Below are positions 5,100-34,960 of a stretch of 64,000 nt of DNA, in pieces (position 1 is the first letter of the stretch; each line of letters opens with the position of its first letter). A program made the translations under genes and the position numbers. The DNA lies in NCBI GenBank assembly GCA_026129865.1, contig JAHCHG010000004.1:186001-250000 (forward strand). Direction: 5' to 3'. Source of the stretch: Pyrinomonadaceae bacterium. Lineage in GTDB: Bacteria > Acidobacteriota > Blastocatellia > Pyrinomonadales > Pyrinomonadaceae. The notes beneath the pieces are model-generated. The model saw only the letters and a list, made by a program, of their open reading frames with translations. It searched no databases and was not told the origin of the DNA.

Positions 5100-6052
5100 A
5101 GCGAGTTTGTATAAAACCTGTTTTCATCAAAAAAGTTTTTGCCGACATAGAAACCGCTCTCGGCAGCGAGACGTTCGATCATTCCGATCCCGTATTTTTG
5201 CGAAACCTCCATATAGATCGGCTCCCATTTTTTGAATTCAAAAGTTTTGCCGATCGCATCGATCGTAACGGTCTGGTTTTTTTGACTAATTAGAAACGAA
5301 CGCGCCGCACGTTCGAGCGGATGATAGCTGGCGTAATGCGAAAACTCTTCGATGTTAAAATCGGCGCCAAGTTCGCGATTGATTCGTTTTAGTAGGTTCA
5401 AGTTGAACTTTGCCGTAACGCCCTGCGAATCGTCATAGGCATTTAAGATAGTTTTCGGGTTTTTATGAAGATCGAATCCGATTAGCAGAAAATCGTGGTC
5501 GTTCATTACAAGCCGAAGTTTCCGGAAAAAGTCGAGCGCCTGCTCTTCGCTGAAATTCCCGACGTTCGAACCTAGAAATAAGATCACTTTTTTTCGCTGT
5601 GAGCGTTTTGAAAGGGTTTCGATTGTTTTAAAATAATCGCCCTGTTCCGGATTTATTTCTAGAGCCGGGAATTTCAAATGGAATTTGTCGGTCAAAAAAT
5701 TTAAAGCTTCTGCCGAAATATCAACCGGAATATAACGAAACTGCGCATTCCGTTCAATGAAATGGCTGACCAAGACAGAGGTTTTCAAGCCGTCGCCGGC
5801 GCCGAGCTCGATAAGATCAAATTCGCGTTCTCCGCCTTCGATCGTTTCAAAAATTTCCTGTGTAGAGTTGGTAAATATCTCAAGCTCGCTTCTGGTGAGG
5901 TAATATTCAGGCAATTTCATTATTTCCTGAAAAAGCCTTGAACCTTCGTCATCGTAAAAATATTTTGAAGATAAAAATTTCGGATCGGCGGAAAGACCCG
6001 TATCTATGTCTCCCGCGAAAGTCCCGTATTTGGTTCCGCTTGCGCTCTGCAT
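5081..6052 (-). CDS. egtD: L-histidine N-alpha-methyltransferase (EgtD)
   Basis: EgtD trimethylates histidine with S-adenosylmethionine to give hercynine, the precursor of ergothioneine. The N-terminal region has KYFYDDEGSRLFQEIMKLPEYY, split here as KYFYDDEGSRLFQEI and LPEYYLTRSE, typical of the family; the SAM-binding motif is IELGAGDG, and later LFLGSNVGN and the GFDLHKN loop match. The start chosen at 6052 (MQSASGTKYG) has AGGGGA upstream and gives 323 residues, very close to the 321 of the mycobacterial enzyme; in-frame ATGs at 6073 and 6139 lack a ribosome site. It lies directly downstream of egtB, so the pair forms a minimal ergothioneine operon. Confidence 0.93.
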   Translation of the reverse strand: MQSASGTKYGTFAGDIDTGLSADPKFLSSKYFYDDEGSRLFQEIMKLPEYYLTRSELEIFTNSTQEIFETIEGGEREFDLIELGAGDGLKTSVLVSHFIERNAQFRYIPVDISAEALNFLTDKFHLKFPALEINPEQGDYFKTIETLSKRSQRKKVILFLGSNVGNFSEEQALDFFRKLRLVMNDHDFLLIGFDLHKNPKTILNAYDDSQGVTAKFNLNLLKRINRELGADFNIEEFSHYASYHPLERAARSFLISQKNQTVTIDAIGKTFEFKKWEPIYMEVSQKYGIGMIERLAAESGFYVGKNFFDENRFYTNSLWKPAG

Positions 6053-6060
6053 TTTTGTTA

Positions 6061-6066
6061 TCCCCT
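6061..6066 (-). promoter_or_regulatory. Shine-Dalgarno that decides the egtD start
   Basis: On the minus strand AGGGGA lies about 8 bases before the ATG at 6052. The two alternative upstream ATG codons (6073, 6139) have no comparable sequence, so this site selects the 323-residue form. Confidence 0.6.
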
Positions 6067-6105
6067 GGTTCATTATTTTTAAGGTTTGAAATGATTTAAT
6101 TACTT

Positions 6106-7290
6106 TTATCGTGCTAAGCGGATGCCGGTAAACTGCCACCGCAGCGGCGGATGAAAAAAGTTTCGATATGTTTTGCGGCTGTGACCGTCCGGTGTAGCGA
6201 CCGAAGCGCCGCGCAGAACCATCTGATTTATCATAAATTTGCCGTTATATTCGCCGACCGCGCCCTCCGGCTTTTTGAATTTCGGATACGGCAAATATGC
6301 CGAATTCGTCCATTCCCAGCGCAATCCCCATTCGAACATTTCACTTGCAGCTTCCCATTCAAATTCAGTTGGCAGCCGCATTCCTTTCCATTCAGCGAAT
6401 GCCGCAGCTTCGTAATAGGAGATATGACAAACTGCGTTGTTTTCATTCAGTTTCCGCAGTCCGCCCAGCGTAAATTGATTCCATTCGCCGTTCTGATGGT
6501 TCCAGTAAAGCGGATGCGCGACCTTATTTTCGTTGACCCAATCCCAGCCTTCCGAATGCCATAAGCGGTGATCCGCATAACCGCCGTCTTCGATAAATTC
6601 CAGAAATTCACCGTTTGAAACGATGTTCGGGGAAATGGAAAAATCTTCCAGGAAAACGCGGTGACGTCCGAGCTCATTATCGAAATGAAATCCTTCGCCG
6701 GCAAATCCGATCTCGAAAATACCGCCTTCGATGTCGATCATTTCCGACGGTTCGACTTCGCCGATCTCGGCGAGAATAAAGTCGGGATGATAAGCAGGGA
6801 AAAGCGGATTGCAGCTAAGCGTGTATTTCAGATCGGTAACGAATAATTCCTGATGCTGCTGCTCGTGGTTCAATCCCAAAACTACAAGCTCTTTGACGGA
6901 AGCCGGAAGCGCGGTTTTCAGAAACGCCTCCATTTTTTCATCGACATATTTTCGGTACTCGAAAACTTGTTCAACCGTCGGTCGCGAAAGATCGCCCCGG
7001 TTGTCCCGCTTGGTTCGCTCGCCGATAGAGTTGTAATAACTGTTAAAAAGGAAGCCGAAATTCGAGTCAAATTCGCGATAGCCCTCAGAAAACTGCTTGA
7101 GGACCATTTCCTCAAAAAACCACGTTGTATGGGCAATGTTCCACTTCGGAGGGCTGACATCAACTATCGGCTGAGGAATGTAATCTTCAATGTTGAGAGG
7201 TTCGCACAGCTTTTCGGTTTTACCGCGAACATTTTGATAAAATCCGAGCAAACCGGACGTTTCAGTTATACCTTGCTTGATCCCTTGCAT
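6106..7290 (-). CDS. egtB: Ergothioneine sulfoxide synthase (EgtB)
   Basis: EgtB is the non-heme iron enzyme that joins hercynine to a thiol substrate with oxygen, forming the C-S bond of ergothioneine. An N-terminal DinB-like four-helix domain carries the iron ligands: H54 in NIAHTTWFFEE, and H142 and H146 in LNHEQQHQELF. The C-terminal half (from about residue 185) is a formylglycine-generating-enzyme-type domain with MRLPTEFEWEAA, EWTNSAYLPYP and RNFFHPPLRWQFTGIRLAR. At 394 residues it is slightly shorter than mycobacterial EgtB. An acidobacterial EgtB (Chloracidobacterium) is known to differ in active-site layout and may use cysteine directly; whether this one does cannot be settled by eye. 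egtD follows. Confidence 0.92.
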   Translation of the reverse strand: MQGIKQGITETSGLLGFYQNVRGKTEKLCEPLNIEDYIPQPIVDVSPPKWNIAHTTWFFEEMVLKQFSEGYREFDSNFGFLFNSYYNSIGERTKRDNRGDLSRPTVEQVFEYRKYVDEKMEAFLKTALPASVKELVVLGLNHEQQHQELFVTDLKYTLSCNPLFPAYHPDFILAEIGEVEPSEMIDIEGGIFEIGFAGEGFHFDNELGRHRVFLEDFSISPNIVSNGEFLEFIEDGGYADHRLWHSEGWDWVNENKVAHPLYWNHQNGEWNQFTLGGLRKLNENNAVCHISYYEAAAFAEWKGMRLPTEFEWEAASEMFEWGLRWEWTNSAYLPYPKFKKPEGAVGEYNGKFMINQMVLRGASVATPDGHSRKTYRNFFHPPLRWQFTGIRLAR

Positions 7291-7711: not shown

Positions 7712-8116
7712 CGATTCGGCAGACAGTCAAGCGACGATGAAACTTATCTTTTGACTGCCGTTTGCGTGATTTCTATCATAAACTGCCTTGACTAGATCTC
7801 CCGAACCATCTAAAAATTTTGCACCTCTATATATATCACAGCGATAAGCAGTTACGCAATAATTTTTCCTGCGAAAGCTAGACATTTACTGACTTATTCA
7901 ATAGACTAACCGCATGAATTTCATAAGGCTTTCTCCAAAGCTTCTTCTTACCTAGCCACCTCGCTTCGCAAATTTTGCCGGCGTGCGTGGCGGACTACCT
8001 TTTCAAACCAAGATAATAGTTGATTTGTTTTCTCGGGTTTCTTTTGACTGGTGAATTCCGGCTGAAATTACTAAACTCGAGTCTTTACAATGATAAGGCG
8101 ACGATTGAGCAAGATT
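7712..8116. other. Gene-free divergent region upstream of leuS
   Basis: About 400 bases without a credible gene separate the small hypothetical gene from leuS. It is AT-rich in the middle (tatatatatcac near 7831-7842). No T-box leader, tRNA or convincing terminator was seen. Promoters for both flanking genes must lie here, but none was clear enough to place. Confidence 0.5.
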
Positions 8117-10765
8117 ATGGACGAGAAATATTACGCTGAAAAGATCGAAAAGAAATGGCAGCAGCGATGGGCTGAACGCGGGACTTTTGAAGTTAACGTA
8201 GACGAAGAGAAGGAGAAGTTTTATTGCCTTGAAATGCTTCCTTATCCGTCGGGTAGACTTCACATGGGGCATGTTCGCAACTATTCGATCGGCGATGCTT
8301 TGAGCTGGTACAAACGGCTTCAGGGATTTAATGTTCTGCATCCGATCGGATGGGATTCGTTCGGTCAGCCAGCCGAACAGGCTGCGATCAAGAAAGGCGT
8401 CAATCCGCGGGATTGGACGGAGGACAACATCGAACAGATGCGCGATCAGCTTCAGCGTTTGGGGCTGAGTTACGACTGGAGCAGGGAATTCGCCGCGCAT
8501 CGACCGGATTATTATAAATTCGATCAATGGTTTTTTCTGAAAATGCGCGAAATGGGCTTGGCATATAAAAAAATGACCAAGGTCAACTGGTGTCCGAAAG
8601 ATGAAACGACCCTTTCAAACGAACAGGCGAGCGGCGGCATGTGCTGGCGCTGCGGCAGCGCGGTCGAAAAGATCGATCTGGCGCAGTGGTTTTTGAAGAT
8701 CACCGACTATGCCGAAGAACTCTTGACAGGAATGGATCAGCTTGAGGGGAATTGGTCGGAACGCGTTTTGACGATGCAGCGCAACTGGATCGGTAAAAGC
8801 TCGGGCGCGTACGTCGATTTCAAACTGGATCTGCATGACGCGAACATCGAAAACGACTCGATAAAAGTGTTCACTACGCGGATCGATACTATTTACGGAG
8901 CAAATTCGGTCGTCGTCGCTCCGGAGCATCCCGTCGTTCTGGAAAACATTGAACGATTTTCGAACGACGTAAAAGCAAAGATCAAGTCGATGAAGACCGA
9001 ACTTTTGAAACCGCGCGATTACGGCGAAGAAGTTGAAAAAGACGGAGTCGATACGGGTTTGAAGGCGGTCAATCCGTTCAGCGGCGAAGAGCTGCCGGTT
9101 TGGGTCGGAAATTACGTAATGATGGAGTACGGGACTGGAGCAGTAATGAGCGTTCCGGCGCACGATGAACGCGATTTCGAATTTGCAAATAAATTCGGAC
9201 TTCCTATCCGGCAAGTGATCTCTGAACCGCATCTCGTACATGAACATCATCAGATGCAGGCACTTGCGCTTGATAAAGCATTTACCGAAAAAGGCATTTT
9301 GGTTCATTCGGACGATTGGAACGGCAAATCGAGCGAGGAAGCAAAACGCGAAATGACGGAGTTTGCCGAAAAACACGGATTTGGCGAATCGGCGATCACG
9401 TATAGGCTGCGAGACTGGGGAATTTCCCGTCAGAGATTTTGGGGCGCTCCGATTCCGATCGTTTATTGCGACGATTGCGGCGAAGTTCCGGTGCCGTACG
9501 ATCAGCTGCCGGTCGAATTGCCCGAAAGCGCGCCGTTTACCGGCGTCGGTGAATCGCCGCTGGCAAAAGCTCCGGAGTTCGTAAATACAACTTGCCCGCA
9601 ATGCGAAAAAGGCGAAGCGCGCCGCGAGATCGATACGATGGATACGTTTGTCGATTCGAGCTGGTACTATTTTCGCTATGTCGATCCAAAGAACGAGATT
9701 CTTCCTTTTGATCCGAACGCGGCGAAATATTGGATCCCGGTCGATCAATATATCGGCGGAGTCGATCATGCCGTAATGCATTTGCTTTATACGCGGTTTT
9801 GGACCAAGGCGATGCGGGATATGGGTATGATCGATTTTGACGAACCGGTCAAAAAGCTTTTGACGCAGGGAATGGTCGTCGGCGAATCGTATTACAGCGA
9901 CGATCATGCGAGCTATTTTCCCGAAGATGCCGTAAGCATTGAACGCGACGAGCGCGGAAAAGTTCTGAGCGCAAAGCTGAAAGAAGACGGTATGCCGGTG
10001 AAAGTCGCCGTCGAAAAGATGTCGAAATCGAAATATAACGGCGTCGATCCCGATGATATGGTGCTTGCGTACGGCGCTGACGCTGTGCGAATTTTCGCGC
10101 TTTTTGCCGCCCCGGTCGAGAACGAACTGGTATGGCAGGAAACCGGCATCGACGGCGCGGTCAGATTTTTGCAGAGAATTTACCGTTATTTTTACCGCTG
10201 GAACGATTCTCCTGCAAATTTTTCGGGCAGTGAACCTTCGGAATTCTCGGCGGCTGCCCGCAAACTGCGCCGGAAAACTCACCAAACTATTAAACGGGTC
10301 ACCGAAAACTTCGAGTCCGGACAATTTAACACGCCGGTTGCCGCATTGATGGAACTGTTAAATTCAATGCAGGATTTTTCGATCGAGCCTGAAAATGCTG
10401 AAGACGGCGATCTTTTTGCGGTTAACGAAGCGATCTCAAGCCTTTTGTTAATGCTGACGCCGTACGCCCCGCACCTGTGCGAGGAGTTGTGGGAAATTAA
10501 AACGGGCAGCGACATCGGGATAATTAATTCCGGCGCGCGATTTCCGTTGGTTCTTGAAGATTGGGCAAAGGTTGACGAACTCGAAATAGCGATTCAGGTT
10601 AACGGCAAACTTCGTTCGCGAGTTTTCGCGGACCCTGAAGCCGATAATTCGTTGCTCGAAAAGCTCGCGTTAGAGGACGAAAAGATCATCGAACACACCG
10701 CGGGCAAGTCGATCGTAAAGGTGATCGTAGTACCGAAACGGCTGGTTAATATTGTGGTCAAATAA
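8117..10765 (+). CDS. leuS: Leucyl-tRNA synthetase
   Basis: This class I aminoacyl-tRNA synthetase charges tRNA-Leu. The HIGH motif appears as HMGH in PYPSGRLHMGHVRNYS, and KMSKS as VEKMSKSKYNGVDP. The large editing (CP1) insertion lies between them, with FTTRIDTIYGAN (the threonine-rich editing loop) and VPAHDERDFEFA (the editing-site Asp region). The C-terminal anticodon-binding and leucine-specific domains follow. The start is placed at the ATG at 8117 (MDEKYYAEKIEKKWQQRW), which matches the usual family N-terminus; an in-frame ATG at 8090 would add nine residues. The length of 882 is normal for bacterial LeuS. Confidence 0.96.
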   Translation: MDEKYYAEKIEKKWQQRWAERGTFEVNVDEEKEKFYCLEMLPYPSGRLHMGHVRNYSIGDALSWYKRLQGFNVLHPIGWDSFGQPAEQAAIKKGVNPRDWTEDNIEQMRDQLQRLGLSYDWSREFAAHRPDYYKFDQWFFLKMREMGLAYKKMTKVNWCPKDETTLSNEQASGGMCWRCGSAVEKIDLAQWFLKITDYAEELLTGMDQLEGNWSERVLTMQRNWIGKSSGAYVDFKLDLHDANIENDSIKVFTTRIDTIYGANSVVVAPEHPVVLENIERFSNDVKAKIKSMKTELLKPRDYGEEVEKDGVDTGLKAVNPFSGEELPVWVGNYVMMEYGTGAVMSVPAHDERDFEFANKFGLPIRQVISEPHLVHEHHQMQALALDKAFTEKGILVHSDDWNGKSSEEAKREMTEFAEKHGFGESAITYRLRDWGISRQRFWGAPIPIVYCDDCGEVPVPYDQLPVELPESAPFTGVGESPLAKAPEFVNTTCPQCEKGEARREIDTMDTFVDSSWYYFRYVDPKNEILPFDPNAAKYWIPVDQYIGGVDHAVMHLLYTRFWTKAMRDMGMIDFDEPVKKLLTQGMVVGESYYSDDHASYFPEDAVSIERDERGKVLSAKLKEDGMPVKVAVEKMSKSKYNGVDPDDMVLAYGADAVRIFALFAAPVENELVWQETGIDGAVRFLQRIYRYFYRWNDSPANFSGSEPSEFSAAARKLRRKTHQTIKRVTENFESGQFNTPVAALMELLNSMQDFSIEPENAEDGDLFAVNEAISSLLLMLTPYAPHLCEELWEIKTGSDIGIINSGARFPLVLEDWAKVDELEIAIQVNGKLRSRVFADPEADNSLLEKLALEDEKIIEHTAGKSIVKVIVVPKRLVNIVVK

Positions 10766-10972: not shown

Positions 10973-13231
10973 ATGAAAGAATGCCAGCTCTGTAAAAACT
11001 GCTTTACTGACGATGTAAATACTTGTCCGCACGATGGAATGCCGACGTTTCATTCGATTAGCGGCGAGCCTGTGCTGGAAGGAAAATATCATCTTGAATG
11101 CCGTCTCGGACAAGGCGGGATGGGTGTTGTTTACAAAGCCCGCCACCAGTATTTAAAGACACTTCACGCGATCAAAATTATTCTGCCGGACCTTGTCGGG
11201 AACGATCCGGAGCTTGTTACTCGGTTTCGTCAGGAAGCGCTTGCGGCAGCTGCGATCCGTCATCAAAACGTGGTCGGCGTTTCCGATTACGGCGTGGCGC
11301 AAGGCACGATGCCGTTCCTGGTAATGGAGTATGTCGAAGGCGAATCGCTCCACGATCTTTTGGAACGCGAGGGGAAACTTTCGCCCGAGAAAGCGCTTGA
11401 ATTGATGTCTGCGATCGCCGCAGGAATTGGCGTTGCGCATAAGCAGGGAATTGTTCACCGCGATTTAAAACCGCTCAACATAATGATCGTAAAGGATCAG
11501 CCGAAAATGTCCGAGGCGGTCAAGATACTCGATTTCGGATTGGCAAAGATCAAATCGGGCGAACTTTTGGGTTCGTTCATTCAAGCCCAGACGACGGGAT
11601 TAATGGGATCGCCGTTTTACATGGCGCCAGAGCAATGGGCGGACGAAGAACCGGACGCGACATCGGATATTTACAGTCTCGGAATAATGTTCTATCAGAT
11701 GCTTTCGGGCGATGTTCCGTTCAAAGGTTCGTCGATTCCGGCGATCATGAAAAAACATATTTCCGATCTTCCGCCGACGTTTGCCTCGCTTGGGCTGAAA
11801 GTCAGCGCGCCGGTCGAAAAAGCCGTTCGCCACGCATTGGAAAAAGATCGAAAAGCGCGCACTCAAACTGTCGAACAATTTATTGAAGAACTGAAAGAAG
11901 CACTTCGCGGTGAAGGCGGCGAAGAAGAGTTCAGCGCCGTAACTAATTCGCAGACGTTGACCTCGTCGCTTCAGGTGCTGACCATTCCGCCGGGTTCTGC
12001 GGTTTTTGTTGACGATAAAGCCGTCGGAAAAAGCGGCGACGATGGATGGATAATCTTCAATCAAATGAAGGTCGGGAAACATCACATCCGCGTCCGCGCT
12101 GAAGGATTTTTTGACTGGGAAACCGAATTTACGCTGAGTGACACTCCAAAAGAGCTCGTTGCACATTTGAAAAAAGACACACTTGCAATTCCGAAACCGG
12201 AAATTGCTGAAATGTCCGCAATTTCTGCCGCAAATGAAACGCAGCGCGATATGGTCATCAGTCAGGGAACTCAGCCGTTCATTCCGCAAACAACTCCACC
12301 GGAGATCGATCCGACTTCGCAGCAAAATTTCCAGCCTGTTCAAACCGGCGGTTTTCAAAATTCGATGCCGGCACCGCCGAAATCTTTCTTTTCGCCGGTC
12401 GTGATCGCTGTAATTGGAATTTTCGGGTTATTCGCACTTGGTATAATTGGAGCCGGCGGAGCATATATGGCTGGAGTGTTCGGCGGGTCGCCGTCGCCGG
12501 AACCGACTGCCGAAACTTCTCCGACGCCTGTTCAGGAAGATCCGCGAAACGAAATGGTTGAAATTCCCGGCGGAACGTTCATGATGGGAAACAACAAGGG
12601 GCGCGACAACGAAAAGCCGGAGCACGAAGTTATTGTCAAGCCATTTTTCCTTGATAAAACAGAGGTTACGAACGCCGAGTATTACCTTTTTGTCAAAGAG
12701 AGCGGTCACATCCCGCCGGCGCATTTCGTTAACGGAAAACCGGCGCCCGGTCAGGAGAAATTTCCGGTCTATTTTGTTTCGCACAAAGATGCGATGGCAT
12801 TCGCACAGTGGCGTTCGAAACGCGACGGCAAGGAATATAGGCTTCCGACGGAGGCTGAGTGGGAATATGCTGCGAGAAACGGCAGCGATGGGAATCTTTA
12901 TCCGTGGGGAAACGAGTTGCTCGAAGATATGGCGGTACTCGACCGTCCCAACGGAAATGCTTTGCCGGTCGGATCGAAAAAAGGCGCAAATAAATGGGGA
13001 GTTCAGGATCTGATCGGAAATGTTTGGGAATGGACCGGATCGGAGGCGAAACTTTATCCGGGCAGTTTAGGAATTGAAAATGAGCTTAAGGACAAATACT
13101 TCATTATCCGCGGCGGTGGAGCCATTTCGGCTTCGGAAGGGGATCTCGCGGTAAACTCTACTTTTCGGGTGCCGACAGAGGAAAACGAGGCGAACAAAGT
13201 GCTCGGGTTCCGGCTGGCTCGATCTAAATAA
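10973..13231 (+). CDS. Ser/Thr kinase with PEGA, TM and FGE-like domain
   Basis: This is a transmembrane eukaryotic-like (Hanks-type) protein kinase. A zinc-knuckle-like N-terminus has C4, C7, C10 and C18. The kinase domain (about 39-310) has the glycine loop LGQGGMGVVYKA, Lys68 in HAIKII, catalytic HRDLKPLN with D164, DFG at 187-189 and APE at 218-220, so it looks active. A PEGA-type domain follows (about 332-400), then a Pro/Gln-rich linker, one membrane helix (about 473-500) and an outward-facing formylglycine-generating-enzyme-like domain (about 527-752; MVEIPGGTFMMG, LPTEAEWEYAA, GNVWEWTGS). Kinase inside and FGE-like sensor outside is the likely topology. It heads a same-strand cluster that includes a protein with three FHA domains, a plausible phospho-target. 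Confidence 0.93.
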   Translation: MKECQLCKNCFTDDVNTCPHDGMPTFHSISGEPVLEGKYHLECRLGQGGMGVVYKARHQYLKTLHAIKIILPDLVGNDPELVTRFRQEALAAAAIRHQNVVGVSDYGVAQGTMPFLVMEYVEGESLHDLLEREGKLSPEKALELMSAIAAGIGVAHKQGIVHRDLKPLNIMIVKDQPKMSEAVKILDFGLAKIKSGELLGSFIQAQTTGLMGSPFYMAPEQWADEEPDATSDIYSLGIMFYQMLSGDVPFKGSSIPAIMKKHISDLPPTFASLGLKVSAPVEKAVRHALEKDRKARTQTVEQFIEELKEALRGEGGEEEFSAVTNSQTLTSSLQVLTIPPGSAVFVDDKAVGKSGDDGWIIFNQMKVGKHHIRVRAEGFFDWETEFTLSDTPKELVAHLKKDTLAIPKPEIAEMSAISAANETQRDMVISQGTQPFIPQTTPPEIDPTSQQNFQPVQTGGFQNSMPAPPKSFFSPVVIAVIGIFGLFALGIIGAGGAYMAGVFGGSPSPEPTAETSPTPVQEDPRNEMVEIPGGTFMMGNNKGRDNEKPEHEVIVKPFFLDKTEVTNAEYYLFVKESGHIPPAHFVNGKPAPGQEKFPVYFVSHKDAMAFAQWRSKRDGKEYRLPTEAEWEYAARNGSDGNLYPWGNELLEDMAVLDRPNGNALPVGSKKGANKWGVQDLIGNVWEWTGSEAKLYPGSLGIENELKDKYFIIRGGGAISASEGDLAVNSTFRVPTEENEANKVLGFRLARSK

Positions 13232-13252
13232 TTCGAATAAAGGTTCGAAGTT

Positions 13253-14596
13253 ATGAATATTAAGATATTTTTGCTGGCAGCGACCATGACCGTTTTAATT
13301 TTACCGGTCGTCGTATTTTCCCAAGATCTGGGAAGCAGCACCGAAGTTTTGAAAACTACCAAGAAGACGAAAGCTACGCCTCGAACCCGAACTTCGCCGA
13401 CAAAACGAAGGAGCACAACTAGGAGAACGTCGACGTCCAGTAAGAAAAAAAATAACACCCGACCGGCTGCAACGCCCGACGTCGCTGAAAAAATCACGCC
13501 TGTTGCGGAGATAAAACCCGAGAAAAAAGTAGAAATTAAGCCGGCAAACGAGATCGTTATCAAGGTTGGTGAAAAGGTTACCGGAAATTTTGATGAATTG
13601 TATGAAAAAGCGATCGAAGAAGGTAATGCGGCGAGGAACGAGCGGAACTACGACGCGGCGGAAACGGCTTATCTCCGAGGCAAGAGTTTAAGAACCGACG
13701 ATTATCGTGCCGCTTACGGATTGGGAAATCTTTACAGCGACCAAGCGCGATGGGAGGAATCCGAAACAGCCTATCGCGAGGCAATAAAAATCGAACCGGG
13801 CGTACCTGAGCCATATATTGCGCTGAGTTTTGTGTTGACACAGCCGATCGCGGGAACAAATTTGATCGAACGCTATTCGGAAGCTGAAAAGTTGGCGCGC
13901 AAAGCGCTTGAACTCGATCCGCAAAACAGCGTGGCGAATGACCAATTGGGCGTTGCGTTGGAACTGCAGGGCGATATTTCCGAGGCGACGCAGAGTTATT
14001 ATGAAAAAGCCGTAAGGACGGATCCGACGTTTGCGCTTGCCTATGCTCATCTCGGACGGCTGCTGCGCAAACGCGGTTCGATCGCGGAATCTTCGCAGGC
14101 GTATGTTAACGCCATACAGTTTTCGGTCGATGTTCCGACGATGATCCAGGTCGCGGATGTGATGCAGTCGCAGCAAAAATATCTCGATTCGGAACAGCTT
14201 CTGCGCCGCGCTTTGAAGGAAGATCCGAAAAACCCGACGGCGCTTTACCTGCTCGGTAAAGCTCTGACAACGCGCGGGACGTATGATGAGGCAGAGTCGG
14301 TCCTAAAGAAAAGCGCTCAGGTAAGTCCCCGAAGTTTCGTTTCTTACACGCTTTTGGGATCGCTGTTCCTGCGTCAGAAAAAGCTTGAATCGGCGGAAAA
14401 ATATCTTGAAGAAGCTGTCAAAGTAGTTTCCCAAAATGAAAAAAGGCGGCTCGCGCTAGATTTCGAAGCTGTCGGAGACGCTTATCTTCAAAACGGTCGA
14501 AACGCGGATGCGGGGCGGATGTACAGGAAAGCGTTCGCACTCGACGAAGCCCGCAGCGACATTGCGAAAAAATTAAAATCTCTTGAATTAAATTAG
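13253..14596 (+). CDS. Secreted TPR-repeat protein
   Basis: This 447-residue exported protein has tetratricopeptide repeats, which mediate protein-protein contacts. The signal peptide spans about residues 1-24 (hydrophobic core ending VVVFSQ). Residues 35-65 are a strongly basic Thr/Arg/Lys tract (KTTKKTKATPRTRTSPTKRR), followed by Lys/Glu-rich linker. TPRs occupy about residues 115-445, seen in repeated A..A....LDP and AYGLGNLY / AHLGRLL / ALYLLGKAL patterns, with about eight to nine units. The product has no catalytic motif. It begins 21 bases after the kinase gene and is probably co-transcribed; the basic tract could bind nucleic acid, cell wall or the acidic tract of the next gene's product (inference). 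Confidence 0.85.
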   Translation: MNIKIFLLAATMTVLILPVVVFSQDLGSSTEVLKTTKKTKATPRTRTSPTKRRSTTRRTSTSSKKKNNTRPAATPDVAEKITPVAEIKPEKKVEIKPANEIVIKVGEKVTGNFDELYEKAIEEGNAARNERNYDAAETAYLRGKSLRTDDYRAAYGLGNLYSDQARWEESETAYREAIKIEPGVPEPYIALSFVLTQPIAGTNLIERYSEAEKLARKALELDPQNSVANDQLGVALELQGDISEATQSYYEKAVRTDPTFALAYAHLGRLLRKRGSIAESSQAYVNAIQFSVDVPTMIQVADVMQSQQKYLDSEQLLRRALKEDPKNPTALYLLGKALTTRGTYDEAESVLKKSAQVSPRSFVSYTLLGSLFLRQKKLESAEKYLEEAVKVVSQNEKRRLALDFEAVGDAYLQNGRNADAGRMYRKAFALDEARSDIAKKLKSLELN

Positions 14597-14635
14597 TCCG
14601 GGAAATTCTCAAAAAAGGCGGATCAACTAAACATA

Positions 14636-16390
14636 ATGCTTTATTGTCCAAAATGTCAGGCGACATATACCGATGGAACTCAGCGCTTTTGCACCAACGA
14701 AGGCGCGCGGCTTCAACCTTATCATTCGGAATCGGGAAGCAGATCGCGCGGAGTTTTTACAAGCATTCTAAATAAGAATCTCAGTGAAAAAAGTACGACA
14801 GCGAAATCGTCCGACGATATCAAGAACGAGTCAACGGCAGAACTGAGAACTCCTTCGGAAAGCCGGTTTTTTAAAGCGAAATCGGATTCAGCCGAAACTT
14901 CGCCTGTCCCGCCGAAAGTAGAGAAAGAATTGCCGCTCGAACTCGAAATTGACGAGCCGGATGAGAAGTCTTTCCAACCGATCCCGATCGCGCGCGTGAT
15001 AGACCCGCGGGCGATTCCCGAACGTGGAAGTTCGAAGGACCGCTCGTCTAAGCGGAAACGAAAGATTTCGCCTTCGCCCTTATTTTCTCCGAATGAGGAG
15101 ATCTCGCTCGACGTGTTCGATAGTGAACCTGAAGCGGAATTTCAGCTTGATCCCGAAGATCCGCTCGGCGCGACCGATCTTTTCGATTCGGAAACGGCGC
15201 AAGATCTTTCGAAACCTCAGCCCGATGACCTGTTATCGCTCGAATCGCCTCAAATTTCAGATCTGCGATCGAACGAACCGGTAGAGACGTTAGAAAAGAT
15301 CGAGCTCGATCCGGAAAGCTCCGCAGAAGTGGATGTTATCCATTCGATTCCGCCTATCGAACTTGAGCTCCGAAGCGAAGAAAAAGCGGAACCGGTCGAG
15401 GAAAACTTGATCTTTCCTCCGGTCGATCACTCGGTTGACGAAACGACCCCGCAAATAGATGAAAGATCAGACGAATCCGAATCGGCTGCGGCAGCGGTCG
15501 TACCGGCAGCGGAAACCGCCGATACAAAAAAAGCGGTCACAGAGGAAGCTTGGGAAAAACGCTCGTCGGACGCTGCCGATCTCGAGGAATCGACCTGGTA
15601 TCTTTATCCTGTGATCGGTGTTCTGATCCTTTTACTCGGTGCTGTAGCGTTATATTTTCTGCTGCGCTCCGATTCAACTGTTGAAATCCCGGCGAATAAC
15701 GGCAATCTCGCAGCCGAACAGCCGGCGGTGAACGCAAATGCGGCAAATTCGAATTTCTTGCCGCAAGTTGAACCGTCGATCGAACCGCCGCCGCAATCTG
15801 CGCTGCTCGATATTCCGCCGCCGCCGCGAATCATAAAACAGCCGCCGAACACCGTTTTGTACCGCAATCAAAAACGCGGTCAAAGCGGTAAGCTCGCACA
15901 AAAGTTTCTTGAGTTTTCGATTTACTACCCGAAAGACTGGACGATCGTCGATACCGGAAACAAGTTTCTCGACATCGCCCGGCGAAATCCTGAGGGTGTG
16001 CCGATAAAGCAGATATTGATCTCGCAATATGACAGCAACGGCACGTTTGAAGCCGATAAAGCGCTGTTTCCCGAACTCGTAAAGAATTCGAATCTTGATC
16101 TGAGCAAAATACTTGCAAATTATAATGTTTTGTCTGAAGGCGAGATCGTTTTTCAAAACGGACGCTGGCGCGCCTGGGAAGTAAAATTTGAGGGAATCGG
16201 CGGAAAACAAAAACTGACGACATGGGGAAGAAGACTTTGGATTCCCGTCCAGCGTCGCGGAATGAAAAGCGGTTTTATAATTACAGTCATCGCGACGTCG
16301 CTGGCAAATAATATCAAGAGTGCCAACGATCTGGATAACGACAAAGAGATCGAGGCAATTCTAAAAACTTTTGAACCGGATTTGAATTAA
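14636..16390 (+). CDS. Zinc-ribbon membrane protein with long acidic linker
   Basis: The function is unknown. The N-terminus is a zinc-ribbon-like knuckle with C4, C7 and C19 (MLYCPKCQATYTDGTQRFC). Residues 50-310 are low-complexity and highly acidic (many Glu/Asp/Ser/Pro, with motifs such as LDPEDPLGATDLFDSE) and surely disordered. One membrane helix lies at about 322-343 (LYPVIGVLILLLGAVALYFL). After an Asn/Ala/Pro linker, a globular C-terminal domain (about 412-584; FSIYYPKDWTIVDTGN) resembles PsbP-like or lipoprotein beta-sandwich folds, but this is a guess. The Ser-rich acidic linker could be a kinase substrate. It follows the TPR gene by 39 bases and precedes a hairpin terminator. Confidence 0.75.
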   Translation: MLYCPKCQATYTDGTQRFCTNEGARLQPYHSESGSRSRGVFTSILNKNLSEKSTTAKSSDDIKNESTAELRTPSESRFFKAKSDSAETSPVPPKVEKELPLELEIDEPDEKSFQPIPIARVIDPRAIPERGSSKDRSSKRKRKISPSPLFSPNEEISLDVFDSEPEAEFQLDPEDPLGATDLFDSETAQDLSKPQPDDLLSLESPQISDLRSNEPVETLEKIELDPESSAEVDVIHSIPPIELELRSEEKAEPVEENLIFPPVDHSVDETTPQIDERSDESESAAAAVVPAAETADTKKAVTEEAWEKRSSDAADLEESTWYLYPVIGVLILLLGAVALYFLLRSDSTVEIPANNGNLAAEQPAVNANAANSNFLPQVEPSIEPPPQSALLDIPPPPRIIKQPPNTVLYRNQKRGQSGKLAQKFLEFSIYYPKDWTIVDTGNKFLDIARRNPEGVPIKQILISQYDSNGTFEADKALFPELVKNSNLDLSKILANYNVLSEGEIVFQNGRWRAWEVKFEGIGGKQKLTTWGRRLWIPVQRRGMKSGFIITVIATSLANNIKSANDLDNDKEIEAILKTFEPDLN

Positions 16391-16418
16391 CAGCCGCAGT
16401 AAACTGAATAAAACCGGG

Positions 16419-16454
16419 CAAAAAGCGTTTGGCAGTTAAACCTTACGCTTTTTG
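16419..16454 (+). terminator. Hairpin terminator or attenuator inside the kinase cluster
   Basis: The perfect 10-base inverted repeat caaaaagcgt / acgctttttg with a 16-base loop ends in a T-run, as in intrinsic terminators (the Ts are within the stem). It lies only 27 bases before the next start codon, leaving no room for a promoter in between, so read-through to the FHA-ABC gene is likely and the hairpin may set the ratio between the halves of the cluster. Confidence 0.5.
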
Positions 16455-16481
16455 TCGTTATTCCGAAAAAGCCCAACAAAA

Positions 16482-19400
16482 ATGAAGATCACTTTAGCTG
16501 AAGTCCGAAACGGCGTAAAACTGCCGGAAACATCGTTCGATCTTGATCTGATCCGTGTCGGCAGAAACGCCGAGCAATGTCAGATAGTTTATGATAACGC
16601 GGCTTTTCCGATGGTCTCGCGCGTCCATGCCGAACTTCGCTGGCAGGGAGCAAATTGGGTTGTCTTTGACGCTAATTCCAGTTTTGGAACCTACGTTAAC
16701 GGTCAAAAGATCTCGTCGCCGCATCCGGTTTCTGCCGGTTCGAAAATACAGTTTGGAACTAACGGTCCGATAGTTGAGATTTTGAGTGTGGGCGACAAAC
16801 CCGCTGCTCCCCCGAAAGATGTTTCCGATTCCGGCTGGGCAACGCCGCCGCCCGCCGCCGCTAAACCGCAAACTCCGCCGCAAGTTCATCAACCAGCGCC
16901 GAGAACGCTGGAGAAACCGGTGCTGGAATTTCTGGATTCCGGCGCGCAGCCAATAGAGATCACTAAATCGTCGATCTGGCTCGGTCGCGATCCCGGCGGT
17001 GATATCGTTTTTGAATCTACAAAGATCATGGTTTCGCGAAAACACGCCGAAATTCGAAATGAAAACGGCAAATTCGTGCTCCATGACAATAAAAGTTTTA
17101 ACGGTACGTTGGTAAACGAGCAGCGCATTTCGGTTCCGACACCGCTGTATCACGACGACCGGATCAGACTCGGGTTAGGCGGACCGGTTCTCCGATTCAA
17201 GTCGCCTTCGCGAACGGCGCCGGCGGGTGCGGCGCTTGCCGGGCAGCGTTCGATCGCAATAAATCAGCTTGCCGAAATTTCTCCTGCGAACGAATCCGTC
17301 GGTTCGAAAACGATGGTCTTCAAAGTTGAAGATCTTACATCGCGCACACCTTCGGCAGCATCGGCGGAACCGCAATTACTTATGTCGCTTACGTTTGGCG
17401 GCAAGAAAGAATTGCTGATAGGTCGCGGCGAAGATTGCGACATTCATCTTGACGGTCTGCAGATTTCAAACCGCCACGCAAAGCTTTCGATGACCGGATC
17501 GGGCATTGTCGTCGAAGATCTAAATTCGACCAACGGCGTATATTTAAATGGCAATCGAATCAGCCGGCAATCGATCGGCATTGACGATTCGGTTCAGATC
17601 GGTTCATTTGTCATCAGGGTCGATCAGGCAAACAACATCGGCGTGTTCGATACACGCGCGAAAACGCGGATCGATTCCGTGAACATAACAAAAGAAGTCA
17701 AAAACCGCGCCGGCGGCGGAATGATCAAGCTTTTGGACAATGTTTCGCTTTCTATTCAACCGAACGAATTTGTCGGTCTTTTAGGACCGTCCGGTGCCGG
17801 AAAATCGACTTTGATGGACGCGATGAACGGAATGCGACCCGCGACCGGCGGCAGCGTCTTGATCAACAATCTCGATCTTTACCGCCATCTCGATTCATTG
17901 AAACAATCGATCGGCTATGTGCCGCAGGACGACATAATTCATCGAGAACTAACGGTTTACAGAACGCTTTATTATGTCGCCAAACTTCGCCTTTCGCGCG
18001 ATGTTTCAACGTCCGAGATAGATCAGATAATCGACGAAGTGCTTGATGTTACAGGGCTTTCCGAGCGGCGCGAAGTTCCAATAAATCAACTTTCCGGCGG
18101 ACAGCGAAAGCGCGTTTCGATCGCTGTCGAGTTAATTACAAAGCCGTCCGTGATCTTTCTTGACGAACCGACGTCCGGTCTCGATCCCGCGACGGAAGAA
18201 AAGATAATGATCCTTTTTCGCCAGATCGCGGAATCGGGACGAACCGTTATTTTGACCACTCACGCGATGGAGAACGTCAAACTTTTTGACAAACTCGTAG
18301 TTTTAATGCGCGGAAAACTCGTTTTTTACGGAACTCCGGATGAGGCGCTTGCCCATGTCGGCGCGTCGAGTTTTAAGGAACTTTACGACAAACTCGAAGC
18401 GCCGATCGAAGAAAGGCTGGAAAGATCGGGCGGAAGCCGTTTTCAGGTTACGGAGCAGGTTGCAGAAGAATGGAAGGATAAATTTACTAAAACCGCGCAA
18501 TATCGGAACAATGTTTACGAACCGCTGAAGGAACTCGGAACGCTTCAATCCGGCGGCGTCCAAAAGAAAAACCGGCTGGGTCTGTTCGGCGCGATTCGCC
18601 AATGGGCGACGCTTTCACGGCGTTATTCTCAGGTTTTGCTGCGCGATAAATTAACGCTTTTCATTTTGCTTGTTCAGGCACCGATAATCGCGTTTCTGGT
18701 TTTTTTGGTGATGGGCGACGATCAGCCGCGTGATTTCGCTTATTTTATGCTGTCGCTTGTCGCCGTTTGGTTTGGAACGTCTGTCGCCGCACGCGAGATC
18801 ATTCGCGAACGTGCCGTTTTCAAACGCGAGCGAATGGTCAATCTCGGGCTGATCCCTTATTTGTTTTCAAAGCTGTTCGTCCTCGGTGTGATCGTCGGCA
18901 TTCAATGTTTGCTGCTTTTTTTGCCGCTGAAATTCTTCGATATCGTCGGATTGATGCCGATGCCGGGCGTGCTGGCGGGAATTCCTCAGCTTTGGGTTAT
19001 GCTTTTGACCGCCGGCGTCGGAATTGCGCTCGGGCTTTTGATATCGGCTCTGGTGAAAACTTCCGAAATGGCGACGAGCCTTGTTCCGCTGATCTTGATA
19101 CCGCAAATATTATTTTCGGGATTAATGGGCGTGCCTCAGGGTATTAATAAAGCAGCCGGTCTTATCATGCCGGCGACCTGGTCGTTCGATACGATGAAAC
19201 GCTACTCTACGCTCGACACGCTCGAACCGGAAGGCGCTATAAAGGGCGGCGAGACAGATGGTCTCGGGCTTTATAAATTCATTGAGAAAGAAAACGATAA
19301 AATAATTGCCGATGCGAAAAGCGAATTGGACGATTACAAAAAAGATTCCGAGAAAAAGCTTGAAAATTATCAAAAGGAGTTGATGAGCGGAGGAAGTCCC

Positions 19401-19589
19401 GCCGCGCCGAAGCTTGACGATCCGCCCGCGATCGCCGATGCGAAGAAACTTCCGGAGAATTTGAGCGGGTACATAAATTTTCTGCATCCATGGATGCACG
19501 AGATTTTAAACCAACTTGTATTGATGTTAATGTTTGGAATGTTAGTTATTGCAACACTTATAGTTCTGCGATTGCAGGACACTCGTTAA
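16482..19589 (+). CDS. ABC exporter with three FHA domains
   Basis: This 1035-residue protein fuses a phosphothreonine-reading module to an ABCG-type half-transporter. Three FHA domains lie at about residues 20-100, 150-240 and 298-380, each with the GR...S/N-R-x-H-A core (VGRN..SRVHAEL; LGRD..SRKHAEI; IGRG..SNRHAKL). The nucleotide-binding domain has Walker A GPSGAGKST (about 434-442), signature LSGGQRKR and Walker B VIFLDEPTSGLDP. The ABC-2 permease at the C-terminus has about six membrane helices and a charged coiled-coil-like extracytoplasmic loop before the last. This layout recalls mycobacterial Rv1747, whose FHA domains are phosphorylated/bound by kinase PknF. The start is the ATG at 16482; an upstream TTG at 16452 lies inside the terminator hairpin. 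The transported substrate is unknown. Confidence 0.93.
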   Translation: MKITLAEVRNGVKLPETSFDLDLIRVGRNAEQCQIVYDNAAFPMVSRVHAELRWQGANWVVFDANSSFGTYVNGQKISSPHPVSAGSKIQFGTNGPIVEILSVGDKPAAPPKDVSDSGWATPPPAAAKPQTPPQVHQPAPRTLEKPVLEFLDSGAQPIEITKSSIWLGRDPGGDIVFESTKIMVSRKHAEIRNENGKFVLHDNKSFNGTLVNEQRISVPTPLYHDDRIRLGLGGPVLRFKSPSRTAPAGAALAGQRSIAINQLAEISPANESVGSKTMVFKVEDLTSRTPSAASAEPQLLMSLTFGGKKELLIGRGEDCDIHLDGLQISNRHAKLSMTGSGIVVEDLNSTNGVYLNGNRISRQSIGIDDSVQIGSFVIRVDQANNIGVFDTRAKTRIDSVNITKEVKNRAGGGMIKLLDNVSLSIQPNEFVGLLGPSGAGKSTLMDAMNGMRPATGGSVLINNLDLYRHLDSLKQSIGYVPQDDIIHRELTVYRTLYYVAKLRLSRDVSTSEIDQIIDEVLDVTGLSERREVPINQLSGGQRKRVSIAVELITKPSVIFLDEPTSGLDPATEEKIMILFRQIAESGRTVILTTHAMENVKLFDKLVVLMRGKLVFYGTPDEALAHVGASSFKELYDKLEAPIEERLERSGGSRFQVTEQVAEEWKDKFTKTAQYRNNVYEPLKELGTLQSGGVQKKNRLGLFGAIRQWATLSRRYSQVLLRDKLTLFILLVQAPIIAFLVFLVMGDDQPRDFAYFMLSLVAVWFGTSVAAREIIRERAVFKRERMVNLGLIPYLFSKLFVLGVIVGIQCLLLFLPLKFFDIVGLMPMPGVLAGIPQLWVMLLTAGVGIALGLLISALVKTSEMATSLVPLILIPQILFSGLMGVPQGINKAAGLIMPATWSFDTMKRYSTLDTLEPEGAIKGGETDGLGLYKFIEKENDKIIADAKSELDDYKKDSEKKLENYQKELMSGGSPAAPKLDDPPAIADAKKLPENLSGYINFLHPWMHEILNQLVLMLMFGMLVIATLIVLRLQDTR

Positions 19590-19600
19590 ATGAGGGGTTA

Positions 19601-20188
19601 ATGAAGAAAATTTTTAATTATTTTGCACTTTTTATAGTTCTTACTTTGGCTATTTCCGGCTTAACGTCGTGTAAAAACAGCTCGACAAGCGAAAGCGGCG
19701 ATACTACCGCATCCGCGCAAACGAAAGACAAAGGACAGTTTCCGCCGCTTCCCGAAAAGATCGCCGCCGCGGACATTAAAATGATCGACGGAAGTTCGTT
19801 CAAACTCGCCGACAAAAAAGGCAAGGTCGTTTTGGTAAACCTATGGGCGACCTGGTGCAGCCCGTGCCGCGCAGAAATGCCGGAACTTGTTGAAATGCAT
19901 ACCAAATACGCGGATAAAGGTTTTGAGGTCATCGGACTGGATACCGATCAGGGCGAGACCGTCGATCAGATCCAGGCTTTTGCTAAAGAGATGAACTTAA
20001 ACTATCCGTTGGGTTATGCGGACGACGAAATGTTTCGCCAGTTTGTCAGAATAAGCGGTCTGCAGGGAATTCCGCAGAGTATTTTGGTCAACCGCGAAGG
20101 GAAAATGACCGGCGTTTTTGCAGGCGGAAACCCGGAAACCATTAAAAAGATGGCTCAAACCGTCGAAAAGACCGTTAATGCGGACTAA
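19601..20188 (+). CDS. TlpA-like lipoprotein thioredoxin
   Basis: This is a membrane-anchored thiol-disulfide oxidoreductase of the TlpA/ResA family, acting in the periplasm. The lipoprotein signal ends in the lipobox LTSC with Cys24. After a Ser/Thr-rich linker, the AhpC/TSA-Redoxin domain has LVNLWATWCSPCRAEMPEL with the redox pair C86-x-x-C89, and the cis-Pro loop GIPQSILVNREG. Start codon ATG 19601 has GAGGGG 4 bases upstream; the open frame extends further up but overlaps the FHA-ABC gene. It follows that gene by 11 bases, so it belongs to the same transcript. Its usual job would be keeping exported cysteines reduced, for example in cytochrome maturation or in cell-surface proteins. It converges with the next gene with a 4-base overlap. 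Confidence 0.9.
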   Translation: MKKIFNYFALFIVLTLAISGLTSCKNSSTSESGDTTASAQTKDKGQFPPLPEKIAAADIKMIDGSSFKLADKKGKVVLVNLWATWCSPCRAEMPELVEMHTKYADKGFEVIGLDTDQGETVDQIQAFAKEMNLNYPLGYADDEMFRQFVRISGLQGIPQSILVNREGKMTGVFAGGNPETIKKMAQTVEKTVNAD

Positions 20189-21684: not shown

Positions 21685-23055
21685 TTAGAATTCTTTAACA
21701 ACTATCGTTCGCGAAACGATGTCATGGATCGCACGATTTTCTTCATTAAAGAAAATAGAGATAAAACCGGCGCCTAGAAAACCAAGCGAAACTAAGTAAA
21801 GACAGGAACTTACAGCAGCCTGGTGAACTGTCGGATACTCTTCGCCTTCGATATCGACGACCTCGAGCGAAAAGAGTCTCATTCCGAACGTGCGTCCGTA
21901 AAAACCGACCGACGCCGTCATATAGATCATTAGAACGACCGCTGTGGTCAGCAAAAATGCCAGTACGCCCGACAGAGTAAACCATTCGCCGCCGATCGCC
22001 ATAAACGGCGTTAAGAGTATCAGGCTCGCAAATGCGCCGATAATGACGTCGAATAAACCAGCGTTAAAACGAACCGCGAGCGGCGCGCAATCGTCAATTT
22101 CCTGCAGTTCGAGATCTTCTTCCTGTTCGTTTTCGATCGATTCGATGTCCAGATCATCGGGTCTTAGTTCTTCACGAATGATCGGACGTTTCTGGCGAAA
22201 ATCGGTTTCGATTATCTCGGCTGACTCTGTGTCGAAACTCGACGAGATCTGCGCAGGTTTCGGAAGCTCCGGAAGTTTGTTCGTGTCGAGTTGTCCGCTG
22301 TCCGTCAATGGAGGATTTGAAGCTTTACTTTCAAAACGATATGAACCGGGAGTTACCGGCAAATGATCGTTTGGTTTCGCCGTAAAATACAGAAGCGTGT
22401 TGTTCGATTTTGCTTTTTCTCCAAACGTCAGTTCCTGCGGCTCTTCCGGTTCCAAAAACTGCCGCCGCGATTTTTCGATGCGGCGAAGCGCTGCTGCGAG
22501 TTTCGGATTAGAAACTCCTTCCGCGTCCGGTGTCGACGGTGCTTCTTCAACTTTCAGCGCGTTTGCTCCGCTCGTTGCAAGAGTTTTTCTTCGAATTGAA
22601 GGAGAATCCGCAATTTCAATGGTTCCGGTTTCGCCGGAATAATTCGACGAACGCTGGCGAACCGCGTTTTTTAACTGCAGCCGCCATTCCGGCAGCTGTG
22701 CGTTCTTGTTGTGAAATTCGACCAGTGTCGGACTCGTATGTTTAGGTTCAAATTCCGTTGTTTCCACTGGCTCTTTCTTGATCTCGCTCTTAACTTCAGG
22801 CGCATACGTAAATTCGATCCGCGTTTTCGGCAAACTTTGAAGGTCGTATTTCGGCGTCTGCGGCGCACTCGGTTTGATCGGGTAATTGTCGGAAATTCCA
22901 GGCAGATCGATCTTTTCCGGCTTTGGAATCGGTTTTATAAGCGGCGTTATCTTGGTGATCAATTCTTCACGAACCGAATCGTTGATCATTGTTCCGCAGC
23001 TCGGGCAGATCGATAATGTAAAAGCGTTATCTCGTTTACAAACAGGACAGTTCAT
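21685..23055 (-). CDS. Zinc-ribbon protein with RDD membrane domain
   Basis: This protein has a zinc ribbon at the N-terminus (C3, C6, C17, C20), a long Pro/Glu/Ser-rich disordered stretch (about 30-320) and a C-terminal RDD domain (about 326-456) in the inner membrane. The RDD signature is seen as PLAVRFNAGLFDVIIG (Arg and Asp), GRTFGMRLFSLEVVD, and the late ENRAIHDIVSRTIVV. Three or more hydrophobic helices lie within it. RDD proteins include Na+/H+ antiporter-like and regulatory members, but the function here cannot be assigned. It is one of six zinc-ribbon-headed proteins in the window. It follows the NFACT start by 57 bases on the same strand. Confidence 0.85.
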   Translation of the reverse strand: MNCPVCKRDNAFTLSICPSCGTMINDSVREELITKITPLIKPIPKPEKIDLPGISDNYPIKPSAPQTPKYDLQSLPKTRIEFTYAPEVKSEIKKEPVETTEFEPKHTSPTLVEFHNKNAQLPEWRLQLKNAVRQRSSNYSGETGTIEIADSPSIRRKTLATSGANALKVEEAPSTPDAEGVSNPKLAAALRRIEKSRRQFLEPEEPQELTFGEKAKSNNTLLYFTAKPNDHLPVTPGSYRFESKASNPPLTDSGQLDTNKLPELPKPAQISSSFDTESAEIIETDFRQKRPIIREELRPDDLDIESIENEQEEDLELQEIDDCAPLAVRFNAGLFDVIIGAFASLILLTPFMAIGGEWFTLSGVLAFLLTTAVVLMIYMTASVGFYGRTFGMRLFSLEVVDIEGEEYPTVHQAAVSSCLYLVSLGFLGAGFISIFFNEENRAIHDIVSRTIVVKEF

Positions 23056-24766: not shown

Positions 24767-25714
24767 ATGGACCAATTGCTCGAATGTGAAAAATGTTCGC
24801 GAAAATCGCCGCCCGCCAGGTCGGAATGTCTCTATTGCGGCGCACCGCTCGCCGGCGCCGTTGACCGTAGCCGACCGATCCGCAAAATGCCGCGTATTTT
24901 GGATGAATGGGAAAAAGGCTTTAATGTGGTTGTTAAGCCGATCGCCAATCAAACTGGTCGATTTGAACGAGTCAATGTAGAAGAGATAGCGGCTGAACTA
25001 GATCTGGTAGTTGACGATCTGATAAAACTCTTTTCAGCCAACGTACCGTTTCCGGCAGCGAGAGTTGAAAGTTCTGCGGAAGCTGAGGCAATTTCGGCGG
25101 TTTTGCGCGAGTACGGCGTCGAAACTGAAGTTGTTGCGGATCAAAAATTAGGTTTAAGTTCACCGCAGAAACGTGTCCGGGCGGTCGCGATCAAAGGCGG
25201 ATCGATCTCATTTACGCTATTTAATACAGGCGACGTAGAAAATTTTTCATCGGAAGATCTAAAATTGATCGTTACCGGATCCGTTTTCGAAAAGACGATC
25301 GAAACAGTTGAAAAACATTCGAAAAAACATACGAATAAGACTTTGAACATCGGTCACACGGCACGCGATCAGCGAATGATAGATGTATATGCCGGAAATG
25401 AGATGATCGGCTACCGGATTATTCCGACCGGATTTGATTTCTCTGCGCTTGGTGCTGAAATGAGCATTTTGGCAACGGAAAATCTGCAGAAATTGTTCGT
25501 AAAACTCAGTAATTGTATCGCGAACGGCGAAGCGATCAACGGATACGACGAGATCAGAAATTCCTTAACGAATATTTGGAGTTTTGAAGAAGTGAACAGC
25601 ACAAAAGGCGTTACAAAAAAAGGAGTCGGAAATGTCAACGTTGCGCGCCAGACTATAGTTACGAATTTAAACCAATTTACGCGCTTTTCGCGGTTGTGCC
25701 GGCAGTTCATATGA
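24767..25714 (+). CDS. Zinc-ribbon protein of unknown function
   Basis: This 315-residue, apparently soluble protein has an N-terminal zinc ribbon (C7, C10, C21, C24; LECEKC and CLYCGAPL). The rest was not recognised. Residues about 65-125 could be a helical module (VNVEEIAAELDLVVDDLIKL, then AEAISAVLREYGVETEVV), resembling the ferredoxin-like folds of ribosome-associated or ClpS-like proteins only vaguely. A mixed alpha/beta region then extends to about residue 265 (including LKLIVTGSVFEKTIE and MIGYRIIPTGFDFSALG). The stop overlaps the start of the rRNA methyltransferase (ATGA), so the two are translationally coupled, which suggests but does not prove a link to RNA modification or translation. 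Confidence 0.75.
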   Translation: MDQLLECEKCSRKSPPARSECLYCGAPLAGAVDRSRPIRKMPRILDEWEKGFNVVVKPIANQTGRFERVNVEEIAAELDLVVDDLIKLFSANVPFPAARVESSAEAEAISAVLREYGVETEVVADQKLGLSSPQKRVRAVAIKGGSISFTLFNTGDVENFSSEDLKLIVTGSVFEKTIETVEKHSKKHTNKTLNIGHTARDQRMIDVYAGNEMIGYRIIPTGFDFSALGAEMSILATENLQKLFVKLSNCIANGEAINGYDEIRNSLTNIWSFEEVNSTKGVTKKGVGNVNVARQTIVTNLNQFTRFSRLCRQFI

Positions 25715-34865: not shown

Positions 34866-34960
34866 AGCTTTTTGGAAACAAGCAGTATAACGAGCATCAG
34901 CCGAATAAAGCAAAAGCGCTCTTCAGTGTGCCGGTTTGGGCGCGCTGCAATTGCACCGAA

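Follow-up and report, generated by a model that had tools for sequence, protein, structure and literature searches.

Conserved kinase and triple-FHA exporter operon of Pyrinomonadaceae with putative PknF-Rv1747-like control

The five-gene cluster at positions 10973-20188 of the window, a stretch of 64,000 nucleotides (positions 186001-250000 of a contig in a 4.4 Mb genome), may well represent a phosphorylation-controlled envelope-signalling operon, in which a Ser/Thr kinase (STK) would serve as the hub, a triple-FHA exporter (FHA-ABC) would be modified at Thr277 (T277), and a TPR protein and a zinc-ribbon protein (ZnR) would form a co-inherited side module. We give this reading a probability of about 0.55. 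In the literature that we found, kinase-controlled FHA-ABC exporters are experimentally known only from mycobacteria; this second, unrelated lineage, whose operon has more components, would allow the roles of the FHA domains and the linker threonines to be tested by comparison. As originally predicted, the cluster consists of five consecutive open reading frames, all on the plus strand, with gaps of 21, 39, 91, and 11 bases, and Pfam agrees with their assignment as a kinase with a formylglycine-generating enzyme (FGE)-like domain, a TPR protein, an ABC exporter with three FHA domains, and a thioredoxin (Trx):

10973-13231, plus strand: STK, Ser/Thr kinase of 752 aa (Pfam Pkinase 3.8e-47, FGE-sulfatase 1.1e-49, PEGA 1.8e-5)
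13253-14596, plus strand: TPR protein (Pfam TPR) with an apparent signal peptide, a Lys-rich mature N-terminus, and TPR repeats
14636-16390, plus strand: ZnR, 584 aa, zinc ribbon, acidic linker, transmembrane helix (TM), and PsbP-like domain (alignment with 28 long orthologues; tree)
16482-19589, plus strand: FHA-ABC, triple-FHA ABCG-type half-exporter of 1035 aa (Pfam; phmmer to ABCG2)
19601-20188, plus strand: Trx, TlpA/ResA-like lipoprotein with WCSPC (Pfam Redoxin 5.4e-20)

All products of the cluster except FHA-ABC are periplasmic in whole or in part. An alternative TTG start of FHA-ABC is possible upstream at 16452. Scanning the cluster for promoters and terminators returned signals at or below chance level, and a scan of genome contigs returned mostly unrelated ABC proteins. 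No PP2C phosphatase gene lies within the cluster, and two PP2C-family matches occur elsewhere in the genome, which also contains about 30 kinase matches.

Conservation of the cluster was surveyed at the order level in 119 genomes, with about 110 loci fetched. STK was matched in 96 of the 119 genomes, FHA-ABC in 79 (78 without one distant paralogue), and the outer domain of ZnR in 72. Where both STK and FHA-ABC were fetched, they share one locus and one strand in 31 of 48 genomes, which represent 11 genera of clades A and B, and occupy separate loci in the remaining 17. The arrangement leuS-STK-TPR-ZnR-FHA-ABC-Trx, followed by convergent NFACT and RDD genes, is complete or almost complete in g1, g3, g5, g13, g19, and g28, and the same four central genes without a directly adjoining Trx are found in g2, g11, g12, and g29. 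Other configurations include STK-FHA-ABC-Trx without TPR and ZnR (parts of g3, g5, and g22), STK-TPR-ZnR-Trx without FHA-ABC (g23 and genome G111), and split loci (parts of g22, g13, g6, and g21). The five-gene cluster is, as judged from these comparisons of gene order, an old one and probably an ancestral operon of the Pyrinomonadaceae, a soil-bacterial family of the Acidobacteriota. Chance gene order is ruled out by synteny over 11 genera.

Among genomes that are at least 90% complete, STK is present in 49 of the 50 that have FHA-ABC, and FHA-ABC is missing from 17 of the 66 that have STK; this co-occurrence is of modest significance (Fisher p = 0.025, kinship ignored). Because STK also occurs without the exporter, we regard it as a hub whose two partners, FHA-ABC and the TPR/ZnR module, can each be separated from it, rather than as a dedicated gate. 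The original prediction had proposed kinase-gated export: kinase and FHA exporter do co-occur in relatives, as neighbours in those 31 genomes, and control of the PknF-Rv1747 type is reasonable, but gating is too narrow a description of a kinase that so often lacks the exporter or is encoded apart from it. TPR and ZnR are both present in 51 cases, both absent in 26, and discordant in 3, two of them apparently because a contig ends there; in a few of the 26, ZnR lies on contigs outside the fetched set. The two genes are gained and lost together, as far as gene presence can tell. Among the class-level FHA-ABC orthologues, no kinase gene was seen beside the exporter outside the family, and no gene family is shared downstream of the exporters in other genera. 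Two loci from other Acidobacteriota encode distant FHA-ABC paralogues near Ser/Thr kinase genes, immediately downstream in L064 and two genes upstream in L234, which suggests that the kinase/FHA-ABC pairing recurs.

STK combines an N-terminal cysteine motif, a PknB-like kinase domain, a PEGA region, a TM, and an outer FGE-like domain:

11087-11863, plus strand: kinase domain, aa 39-297 (Pfam; GQGGMG, AIK, HRD, DFG, and APE)
12314-12316, plus strand: Thr448 (T448), candidate juxtamembrane autophosphorylation or docking site (T-x-x-Q motif; putative function)
12548-13222, plus strand: outer FGE-like domain, aa 526-750 (Pfam FGE-sulfatase; catalytic Cys lacking)

The five kinase motifs are invariant or nearly so among 58 orthologues; the catalytic lysine and both aspartates are kept in 58/58, and STK is predicted to be catalytically intact in every one of them. 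Four N-terminal cysteines, which form a zinc-ribbon-like motif, are invariant as well, and T448 is a threonine in 35 of 47 clade-B orthologues. The FGE-like domain is retained by the STKs of distant genera. Across the 58 STKs this domain contains no conserved cysteine at the active-site positions of formylglycine-generating enzyme or elsewhere, and a role as an FGE enzyme was therefore rejected. A coupled cysteine pair at residues 653 and 671 (window 12929-12931 and 12983-12985) occurs in 27 of 30 STKs of g22 and is absent from the STK of the window; this pair likely forms a disulfide and might be related to the adjacent thioredoxin.

Pfam assigned three FHA domains, ABC_tran, and ABC2_membrane to FHA-ABC. 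Residues 417-882 align with human ABCG2 (phmmer), and the protein is therefore read as a half-transporter of the ABCG type that is preceded by three FHA domains. Its Walker A, LSGGQ, and Walker B motifs are conserved. The features of the FHA region are as follows:

16551-16757, plus strand: FHA1 (PF00498, 67.5 bits; G-R, S, H, and G invariant in 55/55)
16977-17174, plus strand: FHA2 (PF00498, 67.9 bits; phosphothreonine-binding residues invariant)
17310-17312, plus strand: Thr277, candidate phosphoacceptor in the FHA2-FHA3 linker (SKTMVFK; T in 52/55 orthologues)
17415-17603, plus strand: FHA3 (PF00498, 64.3 bits; closest solved sequence GarA 6i2q, E 2.1e-8)

The phosphothreonine-reading residues (G-R, S, H, and N/G) of all three domains are invariant or nearly so among 55 orthologues, and FHA3 also matches an FHA domain of Rv1747 among solved sequences (E 2e-5). 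The linker between FHA2 and FHA3 varies in length and sequence, whereas T277 within it reaches a conservation of 0.95 compared with 0.35 +/- 0.18 for the other linker columns. Valine occupies position +2 in 47 of the 55 orthologues, and no other conserved threonine was found in this linker. T277 is hence, from conservation, the best candidate phosphosite. A similar threonine motif is present in the same linker of the class-level relatives L228-L230, in which no kinase gene adjoins; given this and the roughly 30 kinase matches in the window's genome, T277 could be the target of a different kinase.

The original prediction had described ZnR as an acidic-linker zinc ribbon. Both elements are indeed present, but they belong to a reduced membrane protein with a TM and a well-folded PsbP-like outer domain, in which Pfam found no match:

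14777-15595, plus strand: acidic linker, aa 48-320 (69 D/E vs 30 K/R; flanks align around the pseudokinase of relatives)
15776-16387, plus strand: outer PsbP/LpqN-like domain, aa 381-584 (AF2, Foldseek, Pfam PsbP_2)

The clade-B orthologues (g3, g4, g5, g13, g14, g19, g22, and g28) are about 715-840 aa long, with a kinase domain between the zinc ribbon and the TM; those of clade A are 365-508 aa long, without a kinase domain. The kinase domain of the relatives matches Pfam Pkinase at about 1e-28, is modelled with confidence (AF2 pLDDT 89.9), and has PknB/StkP as its best PDB matches (Foldseek). The VAIK lysine is missing in 24/24 (Arg in 22), the motif reading VVRVL-like, and the DFG aspartate in 21/24; the glycine loop is degraded, the activation segment has about 20 residues vs 34, and HRD and NFG are retained in most. 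By sequence and structure model, ZnR is thus a PknB-like pseudokinase in most relatives. The kinase fold is missing from the ZnR of the window when aligned with these proteins. Because the window's genus is nested in clade B in the kinase tree (support 97/87), its ZnR is free of a kinase domain, and the linker segments PIARVIDPRAI and EEAWEKRS still align with relatives on either side of their pseudokinase, the domain appears to have been lost in this lineage; an assembly deletion may also account for the gap, against which stand a clean ZnR reading frame and a long contig. We regard the window's ZnR as a reduced orthologue of the zinc-ribbon pseudokinases, in which the acidic linker would replace the lost domain; a "protein of unknown function" thereby acquires an evolutionary history. 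A second, apparently independent pseudokinase loss was noticed in locus L170 of genome G018 (ZnR at 4773-6131, minus strand; order TPR-ZnR-Trx-NFACT), and neither STK nor FHA-ABC was found in that genome.

The acidic linker, earlier proposed as a conserved substrate of the kinase, is a weak candidate for a key substrate: in this lineage specifically it takes the place of a domain, at the stretch where relatives carry the pseudokinase, and T277 is the better choice. T277 and the pseudokinase can be named as test targets in a phylum whose signalling has been studied very little. The C-terminal domain of ZnR is predicted with high confidence (AF2 pLDDT 94.7). A PDB sequence search with this domain gave nothing significant, so that a fold comparison was needed; Foldseek matched PsbP (2xb3, E 4e-6) and LpqN (6e5d, 7e-4), with DcrB also alike, which places the domain in the PsbP/LpqN/DcrB superfamily as a distant member with a PsbP-like fold (TM-score about 0.5). 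PsbP_2 of Pfam matches 23 of 46 ZnR members.

Inspection of the N-termini showed a common pattern among the TPR orthologues: a hydrophobic leader, then a conserved beginning of the mature protein (QDLGSSxGLF or GIFRPKNPE), then a Lys-rich stretch. The basic tract noted in the original prediction is therefore real but follows an apparent signal peptide, so the TPR protein should be periplasmic. Trx has the CxxC motif in 60 of 61 orthologues and a lipobox-like motif in 54 of 61, traits of TlpA/ResA thiol-disulfide oxidoreductases with a lipoprotein or periplasmic anchor, and scores below the NCBIfam equivalog cut-offs. The Trx gene overlaps the convergent NFACT gene by 4 bases at the stop codons (window 20185-20188).

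In the mechanism that we propose, STK would be the transmembrane hub, with its non-catalytic FGE-like domain as an outer sensor. It would phosphorylate T277 in the exporter linker and possibly its own juxtamembrane T448, and the FHA domains of the exporter may recognise these phosphothreonines in cis or on another copy. Such binding could assemble, cluster, or activate the ABCG-type half-transporter, as for PknF with Rv1747, and the exported substrate would presumably be an envelope lipid or glycolipid. The TPR and ZnR side module may report the state of the envelope to STK, and the cytoplasmic pseudokinase of most relatives could serve as a phospho-scaffold. Phosphorylation, FHA binding, gating, and sensing are all putative steps here.

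By analogy, the operon would be a PknF-Rv1747-like system of different construction. In mycobacteria, the ABCG-type exporter Rv1747 has two FHA domains and is encoded in one operon with PknF, a kinase that phosphorylates it and modulates it positively (PMC3908365); phosphorylation promotes condensation of the cytoplasmic part of Rv1747 (PMC9312465). Shared with this pair are a Ser/Thr kinase gene upstream of and co-directional with the gene of an FHA-ABC half-exporter, here often with TPR and ZnR in between, FHA domains with apparently intact phosphothreonine-binding residues on an ABCG-type half-exporter, and an FHA linker that is disordered and holds candidate phosphothreonines (PMC3908365, PMC9312465). 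Different from Rv1747, the exporter has three FHA domains with the conserved threonine between FHA2 and FHA3; different from PknF, the ectodomain of STK is FGE-like; and the operon includes additional TPR, PsbP-like (pseudokinase), and thioredoxin genes and belongs to Acidobacteriota, not mycobacteria. A kinase fused to an FGE-like domain resembles the chlamydial kinase with a NirV/FGE-like (DUF323) C-terminus (PMC1262709), although in STK a PEGA-like region and a TM precede this domain, and a cysteine motif stands at the N-terminus. As in GarA/OdhI, an FHA domain is preceded by a linear threonine motif; HMMER set TMVFKVEDL of the exporter against TSVFRADFL of GarA with a non-significant, sub-threshold score that serves as a hint only. 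GarA and OdhI are, however, soluble metabolic regulators rather than transporters, and F at +3 is not conserved in the exporter family. Our literature search returned no paper on FHA kinases of Acidobacteriota or on Pyrinomonadaceae kinases.

The relatives also recall PknB-MviN-FhaA, in which an active kinase, a membrane-anchored pseudokinase, and an FHA reader act in one envelope pathway (PMC12599244, PMC11898655). A comparable relay is possible, if tentative, in most Pyrinomonadaceae: an active kinase would act on a membrane pseudokinase with a PsbP-like sensor, the phosphorylated pseudokinase would dock on the FHA domains of the exporter, and the window would represent this three-tier system minus its middle domain, leaving only a direct action of the kinase on the exporter. 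The relatives' pseudokinase is fused to a zinc ribbon, a TM, and a PsbP-like domain instead of a MurJ-like flippase, the transporter itself is the FHA reader, the window's species is without the pseudokinase domain, and the motif of the MviN/ActPs3 family is VALT rather than VVRVL-like (PMC12599244). Five genomes without an exporter match (G044, G062, G065, G073, and G111) still encode the pseudokinase, which argues against a strict relay.

The same five genomes favour an alternative, to which we lend limited credence, that the real unit is an envelope-stress sensor composed of STK, TPR, and the ZnR (pseudo)kinase, with FHA-ABC as an inserted, separable gene whose FHA domains serve other kinases. 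The STK-TPR-ZnR triad does occur in g23, g28, and part of g22 with the exporter missing, and about 30 kinase matches would provide such other kinases. Nevertheless, exporter and STK still share a locus precisely in the genomes that lost TPR and ZnR (a g22 clade and species of g3 and g5), and nearly all good exporter genomes (49/50) have STK. It is improbable that, instead of acting as sensors, the TPR and PsbP-like proteins assist the exporter in the periplasm as accessory components, for instance as substrate acceptors in the manner of LpqN-like carriers: the PsbP/LpqN-like fold of the ZnR outer domain would suit this role, as would the Sec-type leader of the TPR protein and its basic mature region, but both proteins are absent from many genomes with STK and exporter, 17 good genomes have the exporter without the ZnR C-terminal domain, and TPR and ZnR are kept in exporter-free genomes.

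Least probable, and very doubtful in our view, is that the cluster reflects an inherited gene order beside leuS among neighbours without joint function. The unrelated housekeeping gene leuS upstream and NFACT/RDD downstream are conserved in order too; yet members of the cluster shift as blocks to new loci, TPR and ZnR come and go together, and kinase genes also adjoin the unrelated FHA-ABC paralogues of L064 and L234. The phosphorylation-controlled operon with STK as its hub is thus the reading that we prefer.

Several further features of the surrounding DNA were observed. The RDD-family membrane protein (window 21685-23055, minus strand), whose order beside the cluster is conserved, contains an N-terminal CxxC...CxxC zinc-ribbon-like motif. 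Two sizeable open reading frames (window 24767-25714 and 41661-43337) gave no Pfam match at 1e-8, and the position of the former is conserved in relatives. Four aminoacyl-tRNA synthetase genes, for Leu, Arg, Met, and Pro, are located within 45 kb (window 8090-10765, 32853-34913, 39526-41628, and 51175-52644).
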